Source of the DNA: an uncultured Lysobacterales bacterium
GTDB taxonomy: Bacteria > Pseudomonadota > Gammaproteobacteria > Xanthomonadales > Xanthomonadaceae
DNA length: 35,159 nucleotides
Direction of reading: 5' to 3'
Assembly: GCA_946886865.1 (NCBI GenBank)
Contig: CAMPJI010000019.1
Span: forward strand, 1-35,159
The position numbers were made by a program, and so were the translations under genes. Below the pieces are notes generated by a model. That model saw only the letters and a list, made by a program, of their open reading frames with translations, did no database searches and was not told where the DNA came from. Of the stretch, positions 7,387 through 25,024 are shown piece by piece (within the stretch, counting starts at the first letter, position 1; every line of letters starts with the position of its first letter).

Positions 7387-9384
7387 ATGCCGGGCACCCG
7401 CCGCAACCGCGGCCCACTCGCCGCTCCCATTGCCGCGTCCATCGCCATGGCGTCCGCCCTTGCCGGGCCGGCCGTGGCCGGCGGCGTGTCCAGCCAGGAC
7501 GTGGTGCGGCTGGCCAACATGAGCCTGGAAGAGCTGCTGCAGACCGAGGTCACCAGCCTGGCCGGCACCAGCGCATCGCAGTTCACCACGGCCGCGGCGA
7601 TGACGGTGCTCACCGGCGACGACATCCGCCGCTCCGGCCACCGCACCCTGCCCGAGGCCCTGCGCATGGTGCCGGGGATGTTCGTGGCGCGGGTCAATGC
7701 CAGCAGCTGGACGGTGGGGTCGCGCGGCCTGACCGGGTCCTCGCTCACGGCCAACCGGTACCTGGTGCTGATCGACGGCCGCCTGGTGTACGACCCGCTG
7801 ATCTCGGCCACCTTCTGGGACGCGGTCGACATCCCGCTGGCCGACGTGGACCGCATCGAGGTGATCCGCGGCCCCGGTGCCACGCTGTGGGGCGTCAACG
7901 CCATGAACGGCGTCGTCAACGTCATCACCCGGGACGCGCGCACCACCCTGGGCACGCTGGTGCAGGCCGGCGCGGGGACCCACGGCGAACAGCGTGCCCT
8001 GCTCCGCCACGGGGTCAGCACCGGGGACGACGCCGCGGTGCGGATGTGGGCGAGTTATGCCGCGTACGACGAGTTCCGGAACGCCGCCGGTGCCGGCATC
8101 AACGACGCCTGGTCCACGGTGCGCGCGGGCGTGCGCTGGGACGGCCGGGTCGACGACACGACGGACGCGTCGATCCAGGCGGCGGCGTACCGCCACCCCA
8201 CGGCCGACTTCACGGTGCGCGTCCCCGTACCGGACCAGCACAACACCTTCGAGGTCGTCAGCGGACAGGACACGGTCAACGGCGCGCACCTGATGGCCCG
8301 TATCGGCGCGGCCCCGTCGGCCGAGGCCGGCTGGTCGCTGCTGGCCTACGCGGACCAGTCCGAGCGCCGCAACCTGCGCTTCGGCGTGGAACGGGTCAAC
8401 ACCAACATCGAATACCGCCACTGGCGCCCCTGGGGCGCGCGGCAGCAGGTGATCTGGGGCGCCAGCTGGAACTGGACGAGCGACGACACCACCCCCGGGG
8501 CCTCGCTGCTGTTCGATCCGCGATCGCGGTCGTGGTCGACGCTCAACGTGTTCGCCCAGAACACGTCCGAGCTGGTCGAGGACACGTTGTTCCTGATGGT
8601 CGGCAGCAAGGTGACCGACCACGCGTTCGTCGGCGTGGAAGTCCAGCCCAGCGTGCGTGCCTGGTGGACGCCGTCCGCCGACCAGACGGTGTGGGCGGCG
8701 GTCTCGCGCCCGGTGCGCGTGCCGTCGCGCTTCGAGGAGGACGGCCTGCTGCTGTTCTCCTACGCCGACGCCGGCCTGCTGACCACCGGCCAGGCCAATG
8801 GCGTCATCGTGCCGCTGGGGCTCGCCGGCAACGATGCGCTGCCGGCCGAGGAGCTGCTCGCCTACGAGCTGGGCCACCGCATCCAGCTGTCGCCGCGGGT
8901 TGCCCTGGACACCACCGTCTTCTACAACGACTTCCGCCAGCTGGTGGGCGTACCGGCCACCATCGTCGGCACCTTTTCCGACCAGGCACGCGGCGCGACC
9001 TGGGGCGGCGACCTCAGCATCTCGGCGCGCTGGACCGAGCGCTGGCGCATGGAGGCGTCCTACAGCCGCCTGCAAACCGACATCACGGGCCCGGTGCTGG
9101 CGTTCGACGAGACCGGCACCCCCGGGCAGCAGGCGCAGCTGCGGTCGTACCTGGATGTGGCCGACACCGTGGAGTTCAACGCCGCGGCCTACTACGTCGA
9201 CGAGGTGCCGTTCCTGGGCGTCGACGACTACACGCGGCTGGACCTGGGCCTGACCTGGCGCCCGTGGCCGACCACCTCCATCGCGGTGTGGGGCCAGAAC
9301 CTGCTGGAGTCGCGGCATTCCGAAGCCTCCGGCGCGCAGGTGCCGCGTGGCGTGTTCGCCCAGGTCACGGTGGGCCTGGAATGA
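7387..9384 (+). CDS. TonB-dependent outer-membrane receptor of a YfiR/sensor-kinase operon
   Basis: Gated outer-membrane beta-barrel protein, 665 residues. An N-terminal signal peptide (about 1-33, ending AGPAVAGG) is followed by the short motif MSLEELLQTEVTS, then a plug domain (about 70-180) with VLTGDDIRRSG, ALRMVPGM, VLIDGR and IEVIRGPG-TLWG-NAMNGVVN, and a barrel to the C-terminus. No STN signalling domain is present and no fecIR-type genes are nearby, so classical sigma-factor signalling is unlikely. The TGA stop overlaps the ATG of the yfiR-like gene. Substrate is unknown: nothing in the sequence identifies a siderophore, cobalamin or sugar. In context it may act as an outer-membrane sensor. 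Confidence 0.93.
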   Translation: MPGTRRNRGPLAAPIAASIAMASALAGPAVAGGVSSQDVVRLANMSLEELLQTEVTSLAGTSASQFTTAAAMTVLTGDDIRRSGHRTLPEALRMVPGMFVARVNASSWTVGSRGLTGSSLTANRYLVLIDGRLVYDPLISATFWDAVDIPLADVDRIEVIRGPGATLWGVNAMNGVVNVITRDARTTLGTLVQAGAGTHGEQRALLRHGVSTGDDAAVRMWASYAAYDEFRNAAGAGINDAWSTVRAGVRWDGRVDDTTDASIQAAAYRHPTADFTVRVPVPDQHNTFEVVSGQDTVNGAHLMARIGAAPSAEAGWSLLAYADQSERRNLRFGVERVNTNIEYRHWRPWGARQQVIWGASWNWTSDDTTPGASLLFDPRSRSWSTLNVFAQNTSELVEDTLFLMVGSKVTDHAFVGVEVQPSVRAWWTPSADQTVWAAVSRPVRVPSRFEEDGLLLFSYADAGLLTTGQANGVIVPLGLAGNDALPAEELLAYELGHRIQLSPRVALDTTVFYNDFRQLVGVPATIVGTFSDQARGATWGGDLSISARWTERWRMEASYSRLQTDITGPVLAFDETGTPGQQAQLRSYLDVADTVEFNAAAYYVDEVPFLGVDDYTRLDLGLTWRPWPTTSIAVWGQNLLESRHSEASGAQVPRGVFAQVTVGLE

Positions 9385-9968
9385 CCGGCCTGCAGGGCGC
9401 GACTGCCCGCCGCCTGCGCCTGGGTGCCGCGTCGCTGCTGCTGGGCCTGGCGGTGGTCGGCGGCGCGAATGCGCAACCGGCACCGGACGCCGAGGTCCAG
9501 CTGGAGGCGGCGTTCCTGGTCAATTTCGTGCGCTTCACGCAGTGGCCGCCGCCGTCCGCGTCCGATGCGCCCTATGTGCTGACGGTGCTGGGCGACAGCG
9601 ACGTGGTGGACGCGGTGCGCGAGGTCGTCAATGCCGCCGGCGAGATCCAGGGCCGCCGCATCCGCGTGCAGCGGGTGTCGAGCCTGCGCCAGGGCAACGC
9701 CGCCGCCGAGCTGCGCCGCAGCCACGTGGTGTTCGTGCACCGCTCCACGCCGATCAAGCCGCAGCAGGCACTCGCCCAGGTCGATGGCGCCAGCGTGCTC
9801 ACCGTGGGTGAAGGCCATGACTTCACCCGCCTCGGCGGCATGCTCGGGCTGGCGCGATCGGGACGGAAGATGGAGTTCACCGCCAACGTCGCGGCGATCC
9901 AGGCCAGTGGCCTGACGGTCAGCGCAAAGGTGTTGAAGTTGGCCCGGCGGCCGGGGGGCCGCCCATGA
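9381..9968 (+). CDS. YfiR-family (DUF4154) periplasmic protein
   Basis: Exported protein of 195 residues related to YfiR, the periplasmic repressor that in Pseudomonas aeruginosa sequesters the periplasmic domain of the diguanylate cyclase YfiN. A signal peptide (about 1-31, ending ANA) is followed by the family pattern: AEVQLEAAFLVNFVRFTQWP, PYVLTVLGDS, an R-I-V-R motif, SHVVFVHRS, VLTVGEG-DF-R-GGMLGL and KMEFTANVAA. It contains no cysteine at all, whereas P. aeruginosa YfiR is redox-controlled through disulfides. ATG and TGA overlap the receptor and kinase genes. By analogy it would bind the CHASE8-like domain of the downstream kinase; that interaction is inferred. Confidence 0.9.
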   Translation: MTGLQGATARRLRLGAASLLLGLAVVGGANAQPAPDAEVQLEAAFLVNFVRFTQWPPPSASDAPYVLTVLGDSDVVDAVREVVNAAGEIQGRRIRVQRVSSLRQGNAAAELRRSHVVFVHRSTPIKPQQALAQVDGASVLTVGEGHDFTRLGGMLGLARSGRKMEFTANVAAIQASGLTVSAKVLKLARRPGGRP

Positions 9969-11884
9969 CGCACGCGCCCGTACGCGACGCCTCCCTCGCC
10001 GACCGCATCACGCTGCTGGTGCTGCTGACCAGCGCGTCGGTGATCCTGCTGGTGTCGGCCGCGCTGGCCGCGTCCAACCACGTGCAGGTCCGCGACACGA
10101 CGTACCAGTCGCTGCGCACGCAGGCGAGCCTGGCCGCCATCAACGCGGCCGCGCCGCTGGCGTTCGATGATGTCGCCACCGCGCGCGAGGTCGTGGAGGG
10201 CTTCAGCGCCTTGCCCGATGTGTCCTCGGCCACGCTGTTCGACAACGCCGGCGCCGTCTTCACCCGCTACGCCCGGGAGGGTTTCGTCGAGCGCATGCCG
10301 CTGGACACGCGCACCGGTGAACACCGGGCGCTGGGGGTGTACGTGGTCAGCCTGCCGGTGGGCGAGCGCCAGGACCAGCTGGGCACGCTGCAGGTCGTGT
10401 ACGACCTCGCCGGCCTGCGCCAGTTGCTGCTGCGCAACCTGCTGTGGGCCGCGGGGACGTGCGTGGTCGCACTGCTGTTGAGCGCCTTGGCGGCCCGCAA
10501 CGGCGCACGGCTGCTGGTGCGGCGCCTGGAGGTGCTGGACCAGACCGCGCGCGAGGTGTCGCAGACCCGCGACTACTCGCTGCGCGCCCAGGTCAAGGGC
10601 AACGACGAGGTGGCCCGCTTCACCGAGACGTTCAACGAGATGCTCGGCGAGATCCAGCGGCAGGACCGCGACCTGCGCGAATCCCGGCAGCAGGCGCTGA
10701 CCGCCAGCCGGTTGAAGGACGAGTTCCTCGCCACCGTCTCGCACGAGTTGCGCACGCCGATGACGCCGATCACGGGCTGGGCGCAGGTGCTGCAACGCAT
10801 CGCGCCGGACAACCCGCAGGTCACCGATGCCGCGCGCGTGATCGAACGCAGTGCCGCGGCCATGACCCGCATCATCGACGACCTGCTGGACATGAGCCGC
10901 ATCATCTCCGGCAAGGTCCGGCTCCACCCCGAGGACGTGGTGCTGGACACCGTGGTACGCGACGCGATCGCCGCCGTGCAGGTGGCCGCCGACGCCAAGC
11001 GGATCATCGTCTCCAATGCGGTGCCCGGCCAACTCACCCTGCACGCCGATCCGCACCGCCTGCAGCAGGTGCTGTGGAACCTGCTGTCGAATGCGGTGAA
11101 GTTCACCCCGGCCGGCGGGGTCATCCGCATCGAAGCCGTGGCCGACGCCGATCACGCGGAGCTGCGCGTGTCCGACACCGGCCCGGGCATCGCCCCGGAT
11201 TTCCTGCCCTACGTGTTCGACCGCTTCCGCCAGGCCGACAGCAGCGTCACGCGGCCGCATGGTGGCCTCGGCCTGGGCCTGGCGATCGTGCGTCAGCTGG
11301 TCGAACTGCATGGTGGCGAGATCCACGCGCAGAGCGCCGGCCTGGGCCATGGCGCCTGTTTCACGATCACGCTGCCCCGGCACGTCGACGCGGCAGGCGA
11401 TGCCACCGCCTCGCCCCGGTCCAGCGTGCTGCCGGAAGAACCGCTCGGCATCGCCGATGTCCCGCTCACTGACGTGCGCGTGCTGTCGGTGGAGGACAAC
11501 GACGACGCGCGCGAGTACCTGCGCCATGTCTTTGCCAGCCACGGCGCTGAAGTGGTCAGCGCGGCCAGCGCGGATGAGGCGCTCGCGGCACTGGAGCGCG
11601 TCCGCCCGGACGTGCTGGTCAGCGACATCGGCATGCCCGGGCGCGACGGCTATTGGCTGATGCGGCAGGTCCGGTCCCATGCCGACCCCGCTGTCCGTGC
11701 GCTGCCGGCCATTGCACTGACCGCCTTCGCGGCCGACGCCGACCGGCAGAACGCCCTGGACGCCGGCTACGACGGGCATGTCGCCAAGCCCGCCACCCAC
11801 GATGCCCTCGTGGCGGCGGTCAAGGAGGTGTTCGAGGCGTCGGCGGCCCGCGCCGCGGGTACCGACGCGCCGCCCTTGCACTGA
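9965..11884 (+). CDS. hybrid histidine kinase: CHASE8-like sensor, HAMP, HisKA, HATPase, receiver
   Basis: Inner-membrane sensor kinase of 639 residues. Order: helix 1 (about 15-36); periplasmic domain 40-150 with the CHASE8-type pattern seen in YfiN (NAAAPLAFDDVATAREVV, then LPDVSSATLFDNAGAVFTRY); helix 2 (about 155-177); HAMP (about 178-232); HisKA with phospho-acceptor H260 in SHELRTP; HATPase_c with N box NLLSN (372-376), D404 of DTGPG and GGLGLGL; C-terminal receiver with D510/D511 acidic pair, phospho-acceptor D554 and K608. No output domain follows the receiver. The ATG overlaps the yfiR-like stop, indicating a functional unit. The kinase catalytic residues all look intact. Confidence 0.93.
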   Translation: MTHAPVRDASLADRITLLVLLTSASVILLVSAALAASNHVQVRDTTYQSLRTQASLAAINAAAPLAFDDVATAREVVEGFSALPDVSSATLFDNAGAVFTRYAREGFVERMPLDTRTGEHRALGVYVVSLPVGERQDQLGTLQVVYDLAGLRQLLLRNLLWAAGTCVVALLLSALAARNGARLLVRRLEVLDQTAREVSQTRDYSLRAQVKGNDEVARFTETFNEMLGEIQRQDRDLRESRQQALTASRLKDEFLATVSHELRTPMTPITGWAQVLQRIAPDNPQVTDAARVIERSAAAMTRIIDDLLDMSRIISGKVRLHPEDVVLDTVVRDAIAAVQVAADAKRIIVSNAVPGQLTLHADPHRLQQVLWNLLSNAVKFTPAGGVIRIEAVADADHAELRVSDTGPGIAPDFLPYVFDRFRQADSSVTRPHGGLGLGLAIVRQLVELHGGEIHAQSAGLGHGACFTITLPRHVDAAGDATASPRSSVLPEEPLGIADVPLTDVRVLSVEDNDDAREYLRHVFASHGAEVVSAASADEALAALERVRPDVLVSDIGMPGRDGYWLMRQVRSHADPAVRALPAIALTAFAADADRQNALDAGYDGHVAKPATHDALVAAVKEVFEASAARAAGTDAPPLH

Positions 11885-11955: not shown

Positions 11956-12030
11956 GGGCGGTTAGCTCAGCGGTAGAGCATTGCCTTCACACGGCAAGGG
12001 TCGCAGGTTCGATCCCTGCACCGCCCACCA
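11956..12030 (+). tRNA. tRNA-Val (anticodon CAC)
   Basis: A 75-nt cloverleaf: acceptor stem GGGCGGT pairs with ACCGCCC, the D arm holds AGCTCAGCGGTAGAGC, the anticodon stem TTGCC/GGCAA encloses loop TTCACAC with anticodon CAC at 11988-11990, and the T arm contains GGTTCGATCC. The 3' CCA is encoded (12028-12030). It reads GUG valine codons, which are common in this high-GC DNA. Confidence 0.97.
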
Positions 12031-24376: not shown

Positions 24377-25024
24377 CTACATCGAGTCGACCGACTCGAC
24401 CAGCCCGTGGCGCCCGGCCAGGCGCGCGAGCGTGATCGCATCGCGTATGCGCAGCTTCTCGAACAGCCGCGCCTTATGCGTGTTGACGGTCTTGGCGCTC
24501 AGGCACAGCCGGCGAGCGATTTCCTCCTGGCGCAAGCCGCGAACCAGCAGCATCGCCACCTCGGTCTCCCGTGGCGATAGCGCATCGAACGGGTTGCCGT
24601 GGCCGTCGATGCTGTGGAGGGCGAGGTTCTGCGCCACCGCACTGGCCAGGTAGCGGCGCCCGAGATGCACCTCGCGCACCGCATTCACGAGCTCGGCGGC
24701 ATCGCCCCCCTTGCCCACGTAGCCCGAGGCGCCGGCTTCCAGCAGGCGCCGTGGCATCGGCCCATCCTCCAGCACGGACACGATCACGACGCGGGTGGTC
24801 CGCCTGCCGCCGGTAATGCGCTCGGTCACTTCCAACCCGCTGATGCCGGGAAGGTTCAAGTCGCACAGCACCACGTCCGGCGCCAGTGCGCGGATCAACG
24901 GCAGTGCCTGCTCTCCGGTGTCGGCCTCGCCGACCACCTCGATATCGTCGGTCGACGACAGGATCATGGACATGCCGGCACGCACGAGCGCGTGGTCGTC
25001 CACGATGAAGACGCGAATGGTCAT
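24377..25024 (-). CDS. GacA/UvrY-like response regulator (NarL/FixJ family)
   Basis: Two-component response regulator of 215 residues. The receiver (1-120) has the acidic pair D9/D10, phospho-acceptor D54 in VLCDLNLPGISGLE, and lysine K105 region (GYVGKGG). The LuxR-type helix-turn-helix (about 145-205) reads NPFDALSPRETEVAMLL then LSAKTVNTHKARLFEKL. The match to GacA/UvrY runs along the whole protein (VGEADTGEQAL, GASGYVGKG, FDALSPRE, KTVNTHKARLFEKL). In other gammaproteobacteria this regulator activates the Csr/Rsm small RNAs and usually precedes uvrC; here no uvrC or kinase gene is adjacent. AAGGGG lies 7 bp before the ATG. Could be named gacA or uvrY. Confidence 0.9.
   Translation of the reverse strand: MTIRVFIVDDHALVRAGMSMILSSTDDIEVVGEADTGEQALPLIRALAPDVVLCDLNLPGISGLEVTERITGGRRTTRVVIVSVLEDGPMPRRLLEAGASGYVGKGGDAAELVNAVREVHLGRRYLASAVAQNLALHSIDGHGNPFDALSPRETEVAMLLVRGLRQEEIARRLCLSAKTVNTHKARLFEKLRIRDAITLARLAGRHGLVESVDSM

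Follow-up and report, generated by a model that had tools for sequence, protein, structure and literature searches.

The closest described system is YfiBNR of Pseudomonas aeruginosa, in which a YfiR-family periplasmic protein adjoins an inner-membrane sensor with CHASE8 and HAMP domains, and an outer-membrane partner is encoded in the same operon. HmsCDE of Yersinia is its counterpart and bears the same likeness to the genes described here. YfiB sequesters YfiR, relieving YfiN, and the surface of YfiR captured by YfiB overlaps the surface that binds YfiN (PMC4655355, PMC4887326). YfiN relatives with a kinase output were reported in 2012 as modular YfiR-YfiN[PAS] systems, for example in Thauera MZ1T (Malone 2012, PMC3375315). 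These pair a YfiR homologue with a YfiN-like protein carrying a sensor or hybrid histidine kinase output, and TonB is not mentioned in the main text of that paper (supplementary table apart). An operon of related layout was analysed in a stretch of 35,159 nucleotides from an uncultured Lysobacterales bacterium (contig CAMPJI010000019.1; the whole stretch is called the window). It encodes a TonB-dependent receptor (TBDR), a YfiR-family protein and a hybrid histidine kinase with a CHASE8-HAMP sensor. It departs from YfiBNR in having a TBDR where that system has the OmpA lipoprotein YfiB, and in its output, a hybrid histidine kinase and not GGDEF; its TBDR also sets it apart from the YfiR-YfiN[PAS] systems of that main text. 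We propose that the operon encodes a YfiBNR-like envelope module in which the TBDR replaces YfiB, the kinase replaces the diguanylate cyclase, and an N-terminal tail of the receptor captures the YfiR-like protein. This reading was given a probability of about 0.5. The features are as follows.

7387-9384, + strand: TBDR, 665 residues, Plug and beta-barrel (Pfam)
7510-7563, + strand: conserved tail of the receptor, residues 42-59 (LANMSLEELLQTEVTSLA), with a short helix preceding a TonB-box-like VTS; putative docking site for YfiR
7582-7914, + strand: Plug domain of the receptor, residues 66-176 (Pfam PF07715)
9381-9384, + strand: ATGA overlap of the receptor and YfiR-like genes (sequence)
9381-9968, + strand: YfiR-family periplasmic protein, 195 residues, Pfam DUF4154 (PF13689, YfiR/HmsC-like), 119 bits
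9965-9968, + strand: ATGA overlap of the YfiR-like and kinase genes (sequence)
9965-11884, + strand: hybrid histidine kinase, 639 residues, CHASE8-HAMP-HisKA-HATPase_c-REC (Pfam)
10091-10396, + strand: CHASE8 periplasmic sensor domain, residues 43-144 (Pfam), PAS-like fold (AlphaFold2, VIA-align)
10163-10165, + strand: Phe67 of the sensor, invariant in 70 aligned sensors
11480-11824, + strand: receiver domain, residues 506-620, in the C-terminal part of the kinase (Pfam)

The linkage of the three families was surveyed in 398 Pseudomonadota genomes, drawn evenly. YfiR-family matches were found in 94 of them, with 122 genes over the cut-off (2 matches under it were dropped). A TBDR lay beside 77 of the 122 genes (60 adjacent, 14 one gene away, 3 divergent) and a YfiB-like OmpA protein beside 16; the two occurred together at none. 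The adjacency proposed in the preliminary description of the locus is thus conserved beyond close relatives. Clustering of the YfiR proteins at 50% identity (one of the 122 was too short and was left out) gave 84 clusters, of which 52 were linked to a TBDR, 10 to a YfiB-like protein and 22 to neither. A TBDR was present at 22/29 in the family sample and with 22 of 32 YfiR genes, at 30 loci, in the class sample. Thirty loci were taken from one list of YfiR matches (including G032), and at most 3 candidates per genome were scored in one scoring round. Domain labels at the loci came from profiles built for this analysis, with a Pfam check on some proteins. CHASE8 lay within 6 kb of YfiR in 98 of 121 CHASE8 matches over the cut-off, excluding 4 that passed only with neighbours in frame. 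The trio with a CHASE8 hybrid kinase is also carried by the mobilizable plasmid pSRL1 of the alphaproteobacterium Sphingobium indicum B90A.

Tabulation of the outputs at the 122 loci, which the preliminary description had suggested, gave more kinase than GGDEF outputs: 50 CHASE8 hybrid kinases, 14 CHASE8 kinases, 23 CHASE8-GGDEF and 7 CHASE8-GGDEF-EAL proteins, 5 CHASE8 proteins with the output cut off or in another frame, 3 kinases lacking a CHASE8 call, 6 fusions of YfiR to a kinase, and 14 loci with none by the rule used. Three of these 14 (L119, L156, L211) carry a kinase gene directly downstream. The 77 TBDR-linked loci comprised 49 with a kinase, 10 of GGDEF type, 3 fused, 4 cut and 11 with none, and all 16 OmpA loci had a GGDEF output. 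Textbook YfiBNR is therefore a minority form in the sample, and the receptor plus kinase form is the commonest. The kinase form had been presented as unusual, which was overstated, as kinase-output relatives of YfiN have been known since 2012 (PMC3375315).

Several loci differ in architecture. In the six fusions (L188, L201, L206, L208, L209, L210) a YfiR domain replaces CHASE8; Pfam confirms four (L188, L206, L209, L210), and a TBDR is adjacent or divergent at 3/6. The fusions suggest that a YfiR domain is able to act on a kinase. A CHASE8 kinase of 1759 residues (L253:2976-8255), with receiver and Hpt repeats and an adenylate/guanylate cyclase domain at its end, adjoins a YfiR gene. The kinase of a TBDR-YfiR operon at L119:7457-9802 has no CHASE8 match and a weak match to NIT (nitrate/nitrite-sensing; 23.4 bits, cut-off 24.9). 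At L218, L219, L221 and L227 a REC-GGDEF-EAL gene lies directly upstream of yfiR, and at L225 an EAL gene; these are five of the seven family-sample loci lacking a TBDR. YfiR paralogues are numerous in G571 (7 matches) and G032 (9 matches). In Pseudoalteromonas sp. HL-AS1 (L335:3949-4917) the gene immediately upstream of yfiR codes for an IS30-family transposase, and at L336 the annotation splits the receptor adjoining yfiR into two coding pieces.

Comparison of the regions preceding the plug identified a stretch of 18 residues common to the YfiR-linked TBDRs (consensus LLxMSLEELMNVEVTSxS); most control receptors have a plain TonB box at this position instead, as judged by eye. In cross-validation with 41 plug clusters (60% identity) held out by folds, a model of the tail exceeded 8 bits in 113 of 120 linked receptors (3 of 123 were left out, having no plug match). 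Above the same threshold were 3 of 50 control receptors from 25 genomes, the controls being the best plug matches of their genomes and not a random draw, after 10 receptors identical to linked ones had been moved out of the set. YfiR genes are present in 22 of the 25 control genomes (41 of the 50 receptors), and the origin of all three high controls (L287, L296, L317) from such genomes is uninformative. The L287 receptor is arranged in tandem with, and upstream of, a YfiR-linked receptor of its genome. Another 9 receptors lie within the loci but were left out of the linked set; 7 of them scored above 8 bits, and two, L287 (high score) and L325 (low score), also belong to the 50 controls. The window receptor scores 36.5 bits as a member of the training set. 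Three named plasmid receptors outside it, examined from five YfiR matches in a plasmid collection, scored 18.3 and 21.4 (Sphingobium) and 10.9 (Pseudoalteromonas).

Leucine occupies tail position 9 in 115/120 linked receptors, and Leu50 of the window receptor is invariant across 60 aligned receptors (the window's included, chosen of 110 ranked by likeness to it). Ten residues separate the motif from the plug in 97/120, and a helix-capping pattern (S/D/N/T/P at position 5, E/Q/D at position 8) is found in 92/120. Variant tails occur at L257, L266, L267 and L269, with a longer segment between helix and plug in L257, L267 and L269. In the AlphaFold2 model of the window receptor (predicted local distance difference test, pLDDT, 89) residues 25-49 fall below 50, and short helices are placed at 37-43 and, with low confidence, at 47-51. 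Conservation of a segment that is not packed in the model fits what would be expected of a partner-binding segment.

On the YfiR side, the residues of P. aeruginosa YfiR that contact YfiB (PMC4887326) were compared between 16 YfiB-linked and 119 TBDR-linked proteins. P178 is kept in 16/16 of the former and 0/119 of the latter, R60 in 14/16 and 8/119, S57 in 13/16 and 4/119, and R185 in 16/16 and 34/119. Core positions are largely kept (L181, 16/16 and 111/119; F162, 16/16 and 90/119), and E163 is variable in both groups (5/16 and 27/119). The window protein keeps the equivalents of F162, I169, V176 and L181. These changes fit a family in which the outer-membrane partner may have been swapped and the inner partner retained. 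Coupling between YfiR and CHASE8 was 0.242, above the permutation maximum of 0.185, an excess for which phylogeny could account.

In the proposed mechanism the YfiR-like protein would bind the CHASE8 sensor around the invariant Phe67, keeping the kinase in a single state. Occupancy of the receptor, or a pull by TonB, would expose the receptor's N-terminal tail (the short helix and TonB box) in the periplasm, and the tail would capture the YfiR-like protein at the outer membrane. We propose that the tail does the job of YfiB: it adjoins the TonB box, and ligand binding by known receptors frees that box into the periplasm. The kinase would thereby be derepressed or switched, as YfiN is by YfiB, and phosphate would then pass through the receiver domain to an Hpt protein or regulator encoded elsewhere. 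Like the preliminary description, we infer that the receptor sets the amount of free YfiR-like protein; the receptor tail and the changes at YfiB-contact positions fit this. The genes, their conserved linkage, the exclusivity with YfiB-like proteins in the sample, the tail and the sensor fold are observed, whereas tail-YfiR binding, any role of ligand or TonB in it, the direction of the kinase response and every later step are inferred.

Several observations weigh against this mechanism. Neither a TBDR nor OmpA is in reach at 22/122 YfiR genes, nor at 7 more that lie close to a contig end, and the rule used assigns no sensor to 11 of the 77 TBDR-linked loci (L119, L156 and L211 among them). 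The YfiR-kinase fusions leave no free YfiR to sequester. Seven of the 120 linked receptors score below 8 bits. F151, a site of YfiN-related mutations, differs as well (F in 16/16 YfiB-linked and 3/119 TBDR-linked proteins), and the YfiB-linked YfiRs are few (16) and may belong to a single lineage. For YfiR and the receptor the coupling was 0.234, under the permutation maximum of 0.282. In a receptor tree of 178 sequences the linked receptors mostly group, with 10 label changes, so conservation of the tail may partly mark common descent and not docking.

A wider form of the proposal is held more tentatively. YfiR-linked TBDRs might constitute a second class of signal-transducing outer-membrane receptors, lacking an STN domain, in which a short helix N-terminal to the TonB box docks and sequesters YfiR. 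Extracellular ligands would be connected to kinases, diguanylate cyclases or phosphodiesterases, which would be interchangeable; this would be the commonest use of YfiR in Pseudomonadota, and YfiB a special case.

Among the alternatives, the one that survives best, though we consider it unlikely, is that the receptor is a plain transporter and the YfiR-like protein a periplasmic ligand-binding protein that reports the imported ligand to the kinase with no receptor contact. P. aeruginosa YfiR does bind vitamin B6 and Trp in the pocket for YfiB F57, very weakly (Kd 35 and 77 mmol/L; PMC4887326), and the YfiR domain takes the sensor position in the YfiR-kinase fusions. TOL_0244 of Thalassolituus, name-giver of the nearest receptor family, is sevenfold up on n-C28 compared with Tween 80 and was proposed to be an alkane uptake receptor (PMC6304351). 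OmpS, a receptor given as 40.3% similar, is reported by other workers to sense alkanes and to set off chemotaxis genes (PMC6304351, PMC5174103). The hint at alkanes concerns one related receptor, TOL_0244, and not the window receptor itself. Import and sensing leave unexplained, however, both the changes at YfiB-contact positions and the tail N-terminal to the TonB box, which is kept in linked receptors and absent from most controls.

It is less probable still that the tail is a mere variant TonB box or the mark of one receptor lineage, and that the trio interacts otherwise, for example through the periplasmic face of the plug. The tail does occupy the position of the TonB boxes of the controls, judged by eye, the linked receptors mostly cluster on the tree, and receptor-YfiR coupling does not exceed permutation. 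Against this, the helix precedes the TonB-box-like VTS and is kept across the strongly diverged plugs of the 41 clusters, and Leu50 is invariant although AlphaFold2 leaves residues 25-49 unplaced. That the genes are co-regulated neighbours with no shared pathway, the receptor gene merely travelling with the YfiR-kinase pair, is improbable: no receptor is in reach at 45/122 YfiR loci (16 OmpA, 22 neither, 7 neither with a contig end), but the genes adjoin far more often than chance would give, and do so with a variety of receptors, gene orders and outputs.

The gene assignments of the preliminary description, a receptor/YfiR/CHASE8-kinase trio joined by ATGA overlaps, were borne out by Pfam and the sequence. 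The YfiR-like protein has a signal peptide (judged by eye), matches YfiR in the PDB at E 3e-7 and contains zero cysteines, a further difference from YfiBNR. The YfiN-like periplasmic sensor predicted earlier is indeed CHASE8 (PF17152, 50.6 bits), with a PAS-like fold, followed by HAMP (PF00672, 26.1 bits). HisKA, HATPase_c and the receiver lie in a single chain, as in a hybrid histidine kinase, and Pfam finds no GGDEF output in it. Phe67, invariant in 70 sensors chosen of 141 ranked, appears to sit where the Phe of the YfiN 'AAVVF' motif (PMC3375315) is expected, the equivalence being read by eye. The best NCBIfam matches of the receptor and the YfiR-like protein are the TOL_0244 family (NF053590, 476.8 bits, cut-off 645) and the TOL_0243 YfiR-like family (NF053591, 96.9 bits, cut-off 125), yet both fall under the equivalog cut-offs. 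Relatives of the YfiR-like protein occur in Lysobacter selenitireducens (77%), where the trio is present too, and in Lysobacter sp. A3-1-A15 (78%).

In FecA-FecR-FecI the N-terminus of a TonB receptor signals through the periplasm, as is proposed for the window receptor. Unlike FecA, the latter has no match to STN, only the plug and barrel being found by Pfam at E up to 0.1. A module working without FecR or a sigma factor had been suggested, and neither was found beside the operon: no match to these families exceeded the cut-off among 26 window open reading frames scanned with Pfam (part of all those in the window, the 3 operon genes included, some matching nothing). An OmpA profile built for this analysis gave no match within ~7 kb of the YfiR gene, the TBDR standing in its place. 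Upstream, on the opposite strand, is a gene for a CRP/FNR-type regulator (Pfam); downstream are tRNA-Val (11956-12030) and an ArsC-family gene. No response regulator or Hpt gene was found directly beside the operon among the frames scanned. A LuxR-type response regulator (Response_reg and GerE; 24377-25024, - strand) lies 12.5 kb from the operon, with no adjoining kinase gene among those frames, and is a possible partner of a kinase encoded elsewhere. At the 49 TBDR-linked kinase loci of the phylum sample, 27 had no further two-component or cyclic di-GMP (c-di-GMP) gene of the profiled kinds in reach; the others included a second hybrid kinase (11), a receiver gene (10), GGDEF/EAL lacking a receiver (4) and a GGDEF/EAL response regulator (2), in overlapping categories.

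The kinase form of YfiN (2012) and NCBIfam models for both partner families were already known. In a literature search, receptor linkage as the predominant arrangement of YfiR systems, its exclusivity with YfiB and the receptor tail were not found in print; new here is the conserved N-terminal segment just before the plug of YfiR-linked TBDRs. If the proposal is true, it would define a route from ligand binding at the outer membrane to a phosphorelay or c-di-GMP that uses no FecR and sigma factor, and would provide a testable docking peptide. It would also give a reason for the many TonB receptors with unassigned ligands in sensory operons, and would recast YfiBNR as a minority form of a broader receptor-linked family.

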